This document shows, one piece after another, positions 51,316-58,891 of a stretch of DNA of 64,000 nucleotides. A program made the translations under genes and the position numbers. The DNA is taken from positions 392,001-456,000 of the forward strand of contig NC_014212.1 of the NCBI RefSeq assembly GCF_000092125.1, given 5' to 3'. The DNA is from Allomeiothermus silvanus DSM 9946 (GTDB lineage Bacteria; Deinococcota; Deinococci; Deinococcales; Thermaceae). Below the pieces are notes generated by a model that saw nothing but the letters and a program-made list of their open reading frames with translations, searched no databases and was not told where the DNA came from. Within the stretch, counting starts at the first letter, position 1. The number at the start of each line of letters is the position of its first letter.

Positions 51316-51319
<4 letters not shown>
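50879..51319 (+). CDS. Unknown four- to five-helix membrane protein
   Basis: The 146-residue protein has hydrophobic segments at about 22-40, 46-66, 72-86 and 103-140 and no recognised family motif. ATG 50879. The last codons overlap the end of lysZ on the other strand by four bases, so they are convergent. No function can be proposed. Confidence 0.65.
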
Positions 51320-53910
<2,591 letters not shown>

Positions 53911-53913
53911 ATC

Positions 53914-54759
53914 CTACCCCTTCCGCAGGCTCCAGGCGTACTCGAGGATCTTCCCCGGGATGTCCACGCCGGTGGTGCTCACCGAGTTCTTGAACTCCAT
54001 GGTGTGGTTGACTTCGTTGACCAACAGCCCTCGCTCGCTCTCGAAGAGGTCGATGGCCACCACCCCGCCCCCCACCGCCTGGGCAGCCCGTACGGCGACG
54101 TCGGCGAGTTCGGGCGTGAGGGGGCAGTTCGAGGCCTTGCCGCCGCGGGCGGTGTTGGTGATCCAGTGCTCGGAACTACGGTAGATGGCCCCGATGCAGG
54201 TGTTTCCCACCACGAAGGCGCGGATGTCGCGGCCCGGCTTGTTTACCAGCTCCTGGATGTAGTAGAGCTGGTGTTGGTAGCCGCCCAGAACCTCCTTGTG
54301 CTCCAAGACCGTCTCGGCGGCGTCGCGGTCGTTGATCTTAGAAAGCAGCCGGCCCCAACTCCCCACCACCGGCTTCATCACCACCGGGTAGCCCATCGCC
54401 TCGATGAGCTTGAGGGCTTCCTCGGCTTCGGTGGCGAGCGCGGTGCGGGGCTGCGGCACGCCGTGGGCCTCGAGGGCGCAGCTGGTGGCCCACTTGTCGC
54501 CGCAGACCTCGATCACCTCGGGGCGGTTTACCACCGGGATGCCCAGGCTGCTGAGGTAGCGGCTTACGGCCAGGCCCTTGCTCTGGCTCACTAATCGCTC
54601 GACGGCGCAGACCACGCCCTCGAGTTCGGCGGGGCGCTTCCCCAGATGCATGGGAAGCTGTTTGGCGTAGATCTTCTTGAAAGGGATGTCGAGCCGACGG
54701 GCGGCTTCGAAGAGCATCTCCTCATCGGGGCGGATACGGTCGTAGAGGATGGCTAGCAT
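53914..54759 (-). CDS. lysX: LysW--aminoadipate ligase
   Basis: LysX is the ATP-grasp enzyme that joins aminoadipate to the C-terminal Glu of LysW. The 281-residue protein has the RimK/ATP-grasp layout: [18 protein letters not shown] (ATP-binding loop), [30 protein letters not shown] and the metal-binding [18 protein letters not shown] 54759. It sits 77 bases downstream of lysW in the cluster. Confidence 0.94.
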
Positions 54760-54836
54760 AAGGCACTCCGTGCCGCTAAACGCCGGGCGCCAGACGCCTA
54801 ACCGAATGATGTTAGACGTTCGACGGCGCTTCGCGC

Positions 54837-55010
54837 CTACTCTCCCCAGTCTTCCGCTTCCTCAGGGGCAGCCTCGAGCCGGGGTGGATCCAGGCTCACT
54901 ACCTCAAACTCCATGCCGGTCTCGTCGTCCACCACGATCTCGCCCAGCTCGGGGTTCTCCAAAACGATCTCTGCGCCGGTTTCCGGGTTGATAAAGGTGA
55001 CTTTTGCCAT
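54837..55010 (-). CDS. lysW: Amino-group carrier protein LysW, cysteine-less
   Basis: A 57-residue acidic carrier. It ends in EEAEDWGE, the conserved tail whose last Glu is joined to aminoadipate. The middle [10 protein letters not shown] and [12 protein letters not shown] also match LysW. In Thermus LysW two CxxC pairs bind zinc; here the matching sites read NPET and DDET, so all four Cys are absent. AAGGAG precedes the ATG. It is probably functional because the tail is intact and the gene is in the right place, but the fold must hold without zinc. Too short to be found by length cut-offs of 60 residues. Confidence 0.92.
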
Positions 55011-55061
55011 TCTTCAACTCCTTGACTGCGTATTGCCTAAAGCAGAAGCAGGAAATTACCC

Positions 55062-55391
55062 TCAGTTCAGGTATTCCGGTTCTCCCTCGTCCTCGTGAAC
55101 CTCTGACCAATCCGGCACGAAGGTGAAGCCGCAGTTCTCGCAGGTTACCGGCTCGCCTTCCTCGTCCGCCGAAATCGCGATCTGGGTTTCGCAGCGGGGG
55201 CAGTCCACGTAGAACTCGTGCAGATCGCCTTCCACTACCAATAGCTCGAGCGGTTCAATGGAGACGACCTCGAGGGTAGCCCCGCACGAAGGGCAGTCCA
55301 TCACGTCGCCTTCGGCAAGCGTGTCGTACTCTTCGGCAGACATATAGTTGGCCTCACCGCAGACCGGACAACTCACCTCGACCTCGTCCAT
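55062..55391 (-). CDS. LysW-like double zinc-ribbon protein
   Basis: The 109-residue acidic protein has two zinc ribbons, with CPVC (8-11) and CPSC, then CPRC and CENC. Around the first ribbon MDCPSCGATLEVVSIEPLELL strongly resembles LysW (Cys-containing) followed by the EVV-x-x-PL region. It does not end in EDWGE but in EPEYLN. It lies between hacB and lysW with short gaps. It may descend from a LysW duplication or act with LysX/Y/Z as a separate metal-binding partner. Function unknown. Confidence 0.75.
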   Translation of the reverse strand: MDEVEVSCPVCGEANYMSAEEYDTLAEGDVMDCPSCGATLEVVSIEPLELLVVEGDLHEFYVDCPRCETQIAISADEEGEPVTCENCGFTFVPDWSEVHEDEGEPEYLN

Positions 55392-55412
55392 AACCCTCCC
55401 CCTCCCTAAAGT

Positions 55413-55913
55413 TTACGACGGACTCTCGCCCGGGAATCTTCCATGCTTTTTGTAGTACTCCAAGATCGATCCCTCTTTGAGGGCCTCGAGAAGGAAATCG
55501 GGTGGGGGCTTGAGCTGGAAAGTCTCCGTGCCCCGTTTGAGAATGCCCTTCTCGAACTCGAGTTCTACCTCGTCTCCGTCGTGCAAAGCGTCCACCACCT
55601 CAGGAGACTCGAAAGGCATGATACCCAGGTTGACCAGGTTGCGGTAGAAGATGCGGGCGTAGCTCTTGGCGATGATGGCCTTCAAGCCCAGCTTCTTCAG
55701 TGCTTCTGGAGCATACTCACGCGAAGAGCCCAGGCCGGTGTTCTTGCCACAGACCAGAATGTCGCCCGGTTTGTAGTCGGGAGCAAATTCGGGGCGAAAG
55801 TGGGCGAAGGCGTAGGTGTGGAACTTGTCCTCCCCGACCATAAAGGGGGCGTATTTCCCTGGCAGGATGTCGTCGGTGTTGATCGAGTCGCCAAATTTCC
55901 AGATGCGTGCCAT
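55413..55913 (-). CDS. hacB: Homoaconitase small subunit
   Basis: This is the swivel domain partner of HacA in the conversion of homocitrate to homoisocitrate. The 166-residue product has WKFGDSINTDDILPGKY at the N-terminus and GLGSSREYAPEAL (substrate-binding Ser-Arg), as in LeuD/AcnD-like small subunits. Start ATG 55913; a six-codon-longer reading is not needed. It follows hacA by 18 bases. The homoaconitase role over isopropylmalate isomerase is inferred from the lysine cluster (lysU of Thermus). Confidence 0.92.
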   Translation of the reverse strand: MARIWKFGDSINTDDILPGKYAPFMVGEDKFHTYAFAHFRPEFAPDYKPGDILVCGKNTGLGSSREYAPEALKKLGLKAIIAKSYARIFYRNLVNLGIMPFESPEVVDALHDGDEVELEFEKGILKRGTETFQLKPPPDFLLEALKEGSILEYYKKHGRFPGESPS

Positions 55914-55931
55914 TCGGTCTCCAAAAGCCAC

Positions 55932-57203
55932 TCAGGCGTCTTGCGTCTTGCGTCTTGCGTCTTGCGCGTTTAGCTCCTCCGGCGTGCTGATGAACCCGGC
56001 CACCGCGCTCGCCGCCGCCACCCTGGGAGAAGCCAGGTAGATCTCTGCGTCCGCCGCGCCCATCCGCCCCCTGAAGTTGCGATTGGACGTGCTGACGCAG
56101 ACCTCGCCCGGCGCCAGCACCCCCTGGTGGCGGCCCATGCAGGGCCCGCACCCCGGCGTCCCCAGCGTGGCCCCGGCCTGCAGAATCGTGAGGAGCGTGC
56201 CGTCGGCGGTGGCCTCCTCCAGCACCTGCGACGAAGCCGGGATCACCAGCATCCGCACACCCGGCGCGACCCTGCGCCCGCGCAGCACCTCGGCCACCTC
56301 GTGCAGGTCGTCGAGGCGCCCGTTGGTGCAGGTACCCACGAAGACCTGGTCCACCTTCTTGCCCATCACCGAATCTACCGTGTGCACGTTGTCCACGTAG
56401 AAGGGCACCGAGACGCGCGGGGTCAGGGCCGAGAGGTCGATCTCCACCTCGCGCACATAGGTGGCATCCGGGTCCGGGTAGAGCCAGCCGGGCACGTCGT
56501 AAAGCTCCAGGATCTCGCCGCTGGGCACCACCAGCCCGCACTTGGCCCCGGCCTCCACGGTTAGGTTGGCCAGGGTCAGACGCTGGCTGCGGGTGAGGGA
56601 CTCGGCGCCGTCCGCCAGGTGGATCTCCACGCTCATGTAGGTGGCTCCATCGGCGGTGAGGACCCGGACCATCTCAAGCGCCGCGTCTTTAGCGCTCACC
56701 GCGGGGTTCAACCGGCCCCGGAAGGTCACCTTCACGCTCTCGGGCACCCGCAGCCAGGTGCGCCCCGAGGCCGCCGCCAGCGCGATGTCGGTGGCCCCCA
56801 TCCCGCTGCCGAAGCAGGCCACGCCGCCGTAGGTGGTGGAGTGGGAGTCTGAGCCCAGCACGATCCCGCCGGGCAAGGCCAGCCGCTCCTCGATCAAGAC
56901 CTGGTGGCAGATGCCGCGCCCCACGTCAAAGACTGGGCAGCCATAGCGTTTGCCCCACTCGCGGATCTCCTTCTGCGCCTTGGCCACCTCCACGTTGGCC
57001 GCCGGGGCTACGTGATCGATGACGATAGCGACCTTCTCGGGGTAGCGGGGGGTGGCCCCGAGCTGCTCGAGCCGCTTGAAGAAGCTCCCGGCGATGGAGT
57101 CCACCACCATCACCTGGTCCACCTCCACCACCACCAGCTCACCCGAGCGCACCTCGCGCCCGGCCCGCTGGGAAAGGATTTTTTCGGCTAGGGTTAGGCC
57201 CAC
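55932..57203 (-). CDS. hacA: Homoaconitase large subunit
   Basis: The 423-residue [4Fe-4S] dehydratase subunit. Cluster ligands are the Cys in VGTCTNGR and the pair in GCGPCMG. GSDSHSTTYGG and TSNRNFRGRMG are family motifs. Pathway: homocitrate to homoisocitrate through cis-homoaconitate in alpha-aminoadipate lysine synthesis (lysT of Thermus). LeuC is the alternative, but the neighbours are lysine genes. The last ten residues come from a 7-base tandem repeat and are likely dispensable. Confidence 0.93.
   Translation of the reverse strand: MGLTLAEKILSQRAGREVRSGELVVVEVDQVMVVDSIAGSFFKRLEQLGATPRYPEKVAIVIDHVAPAANVEVAKAQKEIREWGKRYGCPVFDVGRGICHQVLIEERLALPGGIVLGSDSHSTTYGGVACFGSGMGATDIALAAASGRTWLRVPESVKVTFRGRLNPAVSAKDAALEMVRVLTADGATYMSVEIHLADGAESLTRSQRLTLANLTVEAGAKCGLVVPSGEILELYDVPGWLYPDPDATYVREVEIDLSALTPRVSVPFYVDNVHTVDSVMGKKVDQVFVGTCTNGRLDDLHEVAEVLRGRRVAPGVRMLVIPASSQVLEEATADGTLLTILQAGATLGTPGCGPCMGRHQGVLAPGEVCVSTSNRNFRGRMGAADAEIYLASPRVAAASAVAGFISTPEELNAQDARRKTQDA
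55936..55963 (-). repeat. Four tandem copies of a 7-base repeat at the hacA 3' end
   Basis: Four perfect copies of GCGTCTT (plus strand) plus a partial fifth. On the minus strand they encode the last residues of HacA (QDARRKTQDA). Copy-number change would alter the frame at the stop codon. Confidence 0.9.
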
Positions 57204-57228: not shown

Positions 57229-57456
57229 AAACGCAGGTACTGGGTACGCGTCTACGAGGATCCGGAAGAGCCGGGGGTCTGGCTGGCGGAAGTCCCGGCG
57301 GTTCCTGGGGTTCATTCCGACGGCGATACCCGCGAGGAAGCCATCGGCAACGTTTTGGAAGCGCTCGAGGGGATGCTCGACGCGCTGAAACGCCAGGGTC
57401 TTCCGATTCCTGAGCCGGATGGGGAGTGGGTAGAGGTGGAAGTGAATGCCGCCTAG
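57226..57456 (+). CDS. hicB: HicB-family antitoxin
   Basis: The 76-residue protein has the HicB partial RNase H-like fold: [20 protein letters not shown], then [20 protein letters not shown]. There is no C-terminal DNA-binding helix-turn-helix of the longer HicB type, so it is a short antitoxin. It overlaps the hicA start by 11 bases. The pair sits between the homocitrate synthase-like gene and hacA, on the opposite strand to both. Confidence 0.85.
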
Positions 57457-57628
57457 GCCGGATGAGGTGGCCCGCAAGCTCAAACGAGCTGGGTTGGTCG
57501 AGGGCGGGCGCTGTTTTTGCCAGCACCCCGACGGGCGAACCCCCGTAATCCCCTTTCACAGCGGCGAATTGCCCAAAGGCATCTTCCGGAAAATCCGCAA
57601 AGATGCTGGGATCAGCGTGGAAGAGTAG
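57446..57628 (+). CDS. hicA: HicA-like mRNA interferase toxin, catalytic His absent
   Basis: The 60-residue protein fits HicA in length and in [22 protein letters not shown], the C-terminal family motif. In active HicA the core reads GSHHxF-x-x-PDGR with a catalytic His; here the matching residues are [12 protein letters not shown], so that His is replaced by Arg. Either the toxin is inactive or the His just before PDG takes over (inference). ATG lies inside hicB. Confidence 0.8.
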
Positions 57629-57649: not shown

Positions 57650-58891
57650 TCAGTCCAGGTTCTCCAAGCGGGCGGTAGGCACTTCCTCCGGCAGCGCGTG
57701 CTTGCGGATGCCGTGGGATTGGGCGAGCTCGAGCAGCAGTTCCTCGGGCTTCTTGCTGCGCCCGATCTCGTGGGTGCGGCTCTTGAACTCCTGGGTGATC
57801 TCCTTGGCCTGCTCCTTGGTGATCTCGAGCGCCTCGACCTCCTTGAGGTAGTAGTAGATCAGGTTCCAGCCCGATAGCGGCCCCAGCAGAAGTTGATTTT
57901 TGTCTACCCCGAAGTCGTGCAGGTTGTGGGCTTCGTAGACCTTCTTTTCGTTGAGTACCGCTTTTTGGTGAACTCCGGCGGTGTGGGTGCGGTTGGTGAG
58001 GGAGACCGGCTCGGTATAAGGTACCAGGGTGCCCAGAATCGAGGCCATGAGCACGTTGAGGGGGTAGCACTGGCTGAGCTGGTACTGCTCGGCCAGGTCG
58101 GGGTAATGCTTGAAGAGGTTGAACAAGACCCCCGTCACTGAGGGGATACCCGAGCGCTCAGCGAGGCCCCAGATGGAGGCATCCACGTAGCGTACCCCCG
58201 CCCGCACCGCAGCCAGCACGTTGGCGAGGGCTAGGCCCCGGTCGTTGTGGAAGTGGCATTCCAGCTCTACCTCGGGGTAACGCTCCCGTAAGGCGTTTAC
58301 CAGATCCCTCACATCCTCCGGCTCGGCCATGCCCACCGTGTCGGGCAGGCCCAGGGTGTTGACGTAGGGGGAGACGGCGTCGTATAGCCGGAATAGGTCC
58401 TGGCGTGGGGTGCGGAAGACGTCCTCAGCGCTGAACCGCAGGTAAAGGCCGGGATAGCGCGCGCGGGTGTTCTGCAGTACTTCTTTCGCCAAAGCTATGG
58501 CCTCTTCGAGGCTCTTTTGCGCATTATGCCGCTGGGCCAGCGGCGAAACTCCCAGATAGAGGTTGAGCCCATTGCAGCCGACCTCGAGCGAGCGCTCGAT
58601 ATCCTCGGGGTGGCAGCGGCAGTGGGCCAACAAACGCAACTCGCGATCGGTGAGGCTCTTGGCGTAGGCGATGAGTTCGCGTACGTCTTGCTCTTCAGCC
58701 ATGCCCACCACCGGGGAGAAGAACTCGATGTGGGTGACTCCCAGCTCGATCAAGCCCGCCAACAATTGCTTTTTCTCCTCGAGGGTGAAGCGGTACTTCT
58801 CGGTGTCAAATAGCAGCGGCGATTGCTGGCCGTCGCGGAAGGTAGTGTCCACGATCTCGATGCGCCTAAGGTGTGTTTGGCTGTTGCCCAT
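57650..58891 (-). CDS. Homocitrate synthase-like protein (HMGL-like family)
   Basis: The 413-residue protein is a TIM-barrel acyltransferase with VDTTFRDGQQSP (first metal/substrate loop), LRFSAEDVFR, LPDTVGMAEP and the metal-binding pair in LECHFHNDRG. ATG 58891. Homocitrate synthase adds acetyl-CoA to 2-oxoglutarate as the first step to lysine. Thermus homocitrate synthase starts with DSTLREGEQ and is shorter (376), so this is a different branch that might also be 2-isopropylmalate or citramalate synthase-like. The leader with Lys codons and the lysine cluster downstream favour homocitrate synthase. Confidence 0.75.
   Translation of the reverse strand: MGNSQTHLRRIEIVDTTFRDGQQSPLLFDTEKYRFTLEEKKQLLAGLIELGVTHIEFFSPVVGMAEEQDVRELIAYAKSLTDRELRLLAHCRCHPEDIERSLEVGCNGLNLYLGVSPLAQRHNAQKSLEEAIALAKEVLQNTRARYPGLYLRFSAEDVFRTPRQDLFRLYDAVSPYVNTLGLPDTVGMAEPEDVRDLVNALRERYPEVELECHFHNDRGLALANVLAAVRAGVRYVDASIWGLAERSGIPSVTGVLFNLFKHYPDLAEQYQLSQCYPLNVLMASILGTLVPYTEPVSLTNRTHTAGVHQKAVLNEKKVYEAHNLHDFGVDKNQLLLGPLSGWNLIYYYLKEVEALEITKEQAKEITQEFKSRTHEIGRSKKPEELLLELAQSHGIRKHALPEEVPTARLENLD

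Follow-up and report, generated by a model that had tools for sequence, protein, structure and literature searches.

In the LysW-dependent route to lysine established in Thermus thermophilus, the small carrier protein LysW receives aminoadipate from the ligase LysX on the last Glu of its EDWGE tail, after which LysZ, LysY and a transaminase act on the LysW-bound intermediate and a hydrolase frees lysine; the same steps would operate at the locus described here. In four-Cys LysW proteins, two beta-hairpins carry a knuckle at their tips (CPxCG and CxxCG), and one zinc staples the two knuckles together. Cys-less paralogues of zinc-ribbon proteins are known from the C+/C- ribosomal proteins, in which the ribbon is lost while fold and job are kept, and both forms often occur in one genome under Zur.

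Archaeal LysW/ArgW carriers (5k2m and 3vpb; Natrinema ArgW, PMC10433800) resemble the Thermus system in tail, fold and an ATP-grasp ligase with a GSWGR motif. The sections of PMC10433800 consulted regard the four Cys of LysW-like proteins as conserved ligands of zinc, describe archaeal members with three or four zinc-binding Cys, and report that the haloarchaeal strain becomes an arginine auxotroph when the carrier's terminal Glu54 is replaced. The comparison of lysine genes in PMC3356886 did not analyze LysW itself. Our search reached part of the LysW literature, and in what it covered of PMC3356886, PMC10433800, PMC8305020, PMC9303977 and PMC12197293 there was no mention of a Cys-less LysW; such forms may have been noticed earlier in alignments.

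Here, we analyzed a window of 64,000 nucleotides from the heat-loving bacterium Allomeiothermus silvanus DSM 9946 (genome code G000; genus g1 of our sample), whose lysine gene cluster encodes a LysW with no Cys at all. This protein is very probably a working amino-group carrier in which two tight beta-turns have taken the place of the zinc-ribbon site.

Results

A lysine gene cluster with a Cys-less LysW

The genes are arranged in the order lysT-lysU-zinc ribbon-lysW-lysX-lysY-lysZ, with a TauE/SafE transporter gene between lysX and lysY, so that lysW is encoded beside lysX and other LysW-dependent genes. The real start of lysZ corresponds to residue 98 of a 366-aa ORF. Locus numbers for the lysine genes (Mesil_0435, 0436, 0438, 0441 and 0442; PMC3356886, Table 1) leave the same gaps as the window, namely one gene between lysY and lysX and two between lysX and lysU. 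No promoter or terminator was found by scanning positions 54700-55500, and a search for plasmid copies returned no match. Upstream of lysT, a HicB/HicA gene pair separates lysT from a homocitrate synthase-like gene and lies on the strand opposite to both. Homocitrate synthase is absent from the list for both Meiothermus species in Table 1 of PMC3356886, and the product encoded here is perhaps a different type of this enzyme.

Features of the lysine gene cluster and its surroundings, in window coordinates
Feature	Position	Strand	Profile match and remarks
lysZ, [LysW]-aminoadipate kinase	about 51316..52125	-	NF010659, 470.6 bits, residues 98-366
lysY, argC-type reductase	52122..53162	-	TIGR01850, 382.5 bits
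TauE/SafE transporter gene	53167..53910	-	118.9 bits
lysX, ATP-grasp ligase with GSWGR motif	53914..54759	-	TIGR02144, 401.9 bits (cut-off 275.6)
lysW, Cys-less type A carrier, 57 aa	54837..55010	-	TIGR01206, 101.3 bits
double zinc-ribbon protein, 109 aa	55062..55391	-	PF21344, 50.6 bits, residues 6-50; 8 Cys
lysU, homoaconitase small subunit	55413..55931	-	NF010629, 324.6 bits
lysT, homoaconitase large subunit	55932..57203	-	TIGR02086, 575 bits
HicB-like antitoxin and HicA toxin genes	57229..57625	+	PF15919, 28.0 bits; PF07927, 34.3 bits
homocitrate synthase-like protein	57650..58891	-	only 234 bits against the TIGR02146 cut-off of 413.55

The sequence-only reading had claimed that this LysW lacks the four zinc cysteines while keeping the ENPELGE core and the EDWGE tail, and both claims are borne out by the ORF. 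The protein exceeds the cut-off (53.2 bits) of the LysW equivalog profile TIGR01206 and also matches the LysW zinc-ribbon family PF21344 (46.6 bits). In place of CxxC pairs it carries NPETG at residues 8-12 and DDETG at residues 28-32, and NPET and DDET align exactly with the two knuckles of T. thermophilus LysW (OrfF; 3wwl, E 3e-18). None of the four Cys that make up the two knuckles of a zinc ribbon is present (0/4), and the protein is thus, judged by its residues, a PF21344 member and yet no zinc ribbon. Length, core, tail and operon neighbors are shared with T. thermophilus LysW; the differences, besides the replacement of all four zinc Cys, are a MAKxxF N-terminus three residues longer and PP for PL before the tail.

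A second, Cys-containing lysW elsewhere in the genome, which the sequence-only reading had named as one finding that would overturn it, was not detected above the TIGR01206 cut-off: the lysW of the window is the only one, followed by the two ribbons of the neighboring protein and, lower down, by two matches at 13.1 and 11.7 bits. For dapB, which belongs to the other lysine route, no match was obtained in this genome, although 11 of 14 control genomes have one, and dihydrodipicolinate reductase is not listed for this species in Table 2 of PMC3356886. The LysK-type hydrolase family, in turn, is matched with 451 bits.

Distribution of Cys-less LysW across Deinococcota

To cover the phylum, 111 Deinococcota genomes were searched with TIGR01206, which found lysW in 101 of them (97 over the cut-off). 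Among these proteins the Cys-less form recurs and the loss is all-or-none: inspection of all 101 gave 67 with four Cys, 34 with zero and none in between, and every one of them ends in EDWGE. Among the TIGR01206 matches listed, no genome has two lysW over the cut-off, unlike the C+/C- ribosomal proteins, whose two forms often share a genome. Among the 34 Cys-less genomes, 33 have the LysK-type hydrolase family over its cut-off, and six match dapB, five of them over the cut-off. One of these dapB genes (G033:C237:21748-22533) belongs to a genome whose LysW is of the same type as in the window, and G033 possibly has two lysine routes or uses DAP for other purposes.

The Cys-less proteins fall into two types. 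In type A, found in seven genomes, NPETG or NPESG together with DDETG replace the knuckles CPECG and CEDCG; it occurs in both genomes of the window's genus g1, in two of the 18 genomes of genus g3 and in all three lysW-bearing genomes of family f3, whose fourth genome gave no lysW match. Its members include Meiothermus granaticius, one Thermaceae MAG and three Deinococcales MAGs; none of the 21 loci compared by record is named Deinococcus, and no sample code is identifiable as that genus. Type B is confined to family f5 (39 genomes, 32 with lysW), where 27 LysW are Cys-less and five have four Cys. It shares with the window's LysW the absence of Cys, the EDWGE tail and the position beside lysX, but its TPYG-like and SDDG/TDEG-like turns are shorter than the knuckles they replace, each by one residue, and the double-ribbon neighbor is missing. 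Chance or a sequencing error can be ruled out as the source of the window's sequence, because the type is present in seven separate assemblies and the gene is under purifying selection (see below).

Some further LysW-like ribbons were encountered. In some g3 genomes and a single f5 genome, small four-Cys proteins with an acidic tail ending in PLPEE or similar are encoded at a distance from the lysine cluster (L106:2986-3162, L107:2980-3186, L108:2980-3162 and L109 (-)), the last of them adjoining, by eye, PrpD-like and citrate synthase-like ORFs; they were set aside as carriers because they have no EDWGE tail. Many genomes of the Thermus-like genus g4 carry a LysW-like ribbon inside longer ORFs of about 160-265 aa (e.g., G044:C4:135404-135553).

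Predicted fold, selection and partner enzymes

The AlphaFold model of the Cys-less LysW (mean pLDDT 87.8) has strands at residues 3-7, 14-18, 25-27, 34-40 and 43-47, which would place NPETGA (8-13) and DDETGM (28-33) at hairpin turns. It superposes on T. thermophilus LysW with 0.8 A over 46 residues in 5eio (Z 8.5), and with 3.1 A over 53 residues in 3wwn when the loose tail is included. The fold is thus predicted to be unchanged; since 15 of the 21 rows in the alignment given to AlphaFold are four-Cys relatives, the model leans to the known fold and says nothing on zinc-free stability.

Substitution rates demonstrate that lysW is under strong purifying selection, with a dN/dS of about 0.02 (0.008/0.364) between the two g1 genomes and corresponding values of 0.055/1.26 for G027 versus G033 and 0.058/2.01 for G006 versus G007. 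We also looked for co-evolution of LysX with the carrier. LysX was found for 99 of the 101 lysW (none for G003 and G080, on short contigs), and among close relatives not a single LysX column sets the four partners of type A carriers apart from the 18 partners of four-Cys carriers. Co-evolution was therefore rejected for LysX, the one enzyme compared, and it appears that the ligase needed no change along with the carrier. The presence of GSWGR in 99/99 LysX is circular, as the ORFs were chosen by that motif; the LysX of the window was matched independently by TIGR02144.

Origin of the Cys-less forms

The loss of Cys is likely a derived state, given that four-Cys LysW occurs in families f1, f2, f4 and part of f5. 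In RpoB trees (45 of 56 rows in the later tree; the first tree was built without G041), the Cys-less genus g1 branches outside the four-Cys genus g2, which separates it from basal g3, and the two Cys-less g3 genomes form the first branch of g3. The fewest changes of Cys state on the 45-row tree are five overall, two of them within f5, for which the RpoB search covered 30 of the 32 lysW genomes (G080 and G094 were left out) and gave no match in G078, G085 and G086.

The LysW tree itself, computed from 59 distinct of 69 sequences with the Cys columns removed (50 columns), puts the seven type A proteins on one side of a branch (92/83). Moreover, LysW of G033 is 88% identical to that of Deinococcales G007, the maximum for f3 versus g3 forms and a value across families, compared to 74-80% between four-Cys LysW of Thermus and Meiothermus within one family, and LysX of the type A Thermaceae loci groups with Thermaceae. 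Together, these three observations speak for an in-place transfer of this tiny gene, and the RpoB trees, with four-Cys g2 between g1 and basal g3, point in the same direction. On the other hand, a single Thermaceae LysW clade remains compatible with an AU test on the 50 columns (p 0.238), third-position identity is 0.53 and the GC content of lysW fits the present genome; any transfer must be old in view of the low third-position identity. On this evidence, we regard it as an even chance that a type A lysW (or lysV-lysW) reached Allomeiothermus and basal Meiothermus horizontally from a Deinococcales donor and took over the position of the four-Cys gene. Another possibility is that the ancestral gene was Cys-less and was later replaced by four-Cys forms. 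Transfer concerns the origin of the gene and is compatible with the replacement of the zinc site by turns.

The double-ribbon neighbor

The protein encoded directly upstream of lysW, which we take to be LysV/OrfE (its T. thermophilus counterpart presumably being OrfE), contains four CxxC pairs, with a LysW-like ribbon at residues 6-50 and a second ribbon at residues 62-91. The likeness to Cys-containing LysW seen in the sequence-only reading holds: the first ribbon lies above the PF21344 cut-off of 27 bits, and the model of the protein (mean pLDDT 76.5) superposes on 5eio LysW with 1.8 A over 46 residues (Z 6.5). Far from being unrelated by alignment, the first ribbon is a LysW paralogue. Against TIGR01206 the protein reaches 35.4 bits, below the cut-off, and its C-terminus is PEYLN instead of EDWGE.

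The neighbor is found beside lysW in all 69 loci of families f1 to f4, with all eight Cys in each of them, whether LysW has four Cys (62 loci) or none (7 loci). A whole-genome profile search detected it in the same 69 of 111 genomes; the 39 f5 genomes, 27 of which have Cys-less LysW, gave no match. Its presence follows lineage and not the cysteine state of LysW. According to the locus numbers in Table 1 of PMC3356886, the gap between lysX and lysU comprises two genes in T. thermophilus and one in Truepera.

With a LysW-like first ribbon and a constant place next to lysW in four families, this protein might be thought to supply the metal or to be the real carrier, leaving the Cys-less LysW as a tail donor or relic. 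We consider this very unlikely, since it has no EDWGE end, is equally complete beside four-Cys and Cys-less LysW, was not found in f5, and adjoins a LysW that is itself under strong purifying selection. Of the two explanations offered by the sequence-only reading, takeover of the metal role by the neighbor is therefore left without support, whereas a carrier working without zinc is supported by the sole lysW over the cut-off, the lack of a dapB match, the tail, the predicted fold and the low dN/dS. The best explanation for the neighbor is a separate role independent of the LysW cysteines; that it docks on the LysW-handling enzymes is a guess.

Discussion

The carrier reading draws on observed sequence, gene context, sole lysW, all-or-none loss and selection, together with a predicted fold; from these we infer both the metal-free state and the carrier activity. 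In addition, type B, which arrives at a Cys-less protein by other, shorter turns, counts in its favor, and the dapB of type A genome G033 counts against it. In type A, all four ligands are swapped together, Cys giving way to Asn, Thr, Asp and Thr, and the resulting NPETG and DDETG are expected to close these same hairpins with no need for a metal. Sequences of the form Asn-Pro-x-x-Gly and Asp-x-x-x-Gly are common in tight turns, and we therefore propose that a self-closing turn took the place of each zinc knuckle. As the cysteines are gone and yet everything else indicates a working carrier, the zinc seems to be a structural staple that can be replaced.

Weak metal binding by Asp, Thr and Asn side chains is conceivable, and the four positions are polar and, except for Thr/Ser at the second, invariant in the seven type A sequences; nevertheless, it is most improbable that NPET and DDET still hold a metal in place of Cys, because in type B both loops are shorter and retain only Thr/Ser and Asp, which leaves no ligand set common to the two types, and because one Asp with hard oxygen ligands makes a poor zinc site.

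Extending the replacement of the zinc clamp by turns, we tentatively sketch a broader picture that is on balance doubtful. Zinc may be a dispensable staple lost as a full four-ligand swap at least two times with two turn designs; the Cys-less gene may have passed from family to family as an in-place replacement of 170 bp, accepted by the resident LysX, LysY and LysZ without matching changes; and the double-ribbon neighbor may be an unrecognized pathway partner, a LysW mimic docking on the same enzymes.

One third of the LysW proteins in this phylum sample do without Cys, always by a complete four-ligand swap, and this completeness makes the role of zinc directly testable. NPETG/DDETG and TPYG/SDDG represent natural minimal designs for turning a zinc ribbon metal-free. 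Real carriers of this kind would be overlooked if annotation relied on the Cys pattern, and the conserved double-ribbon partner merits separate study.
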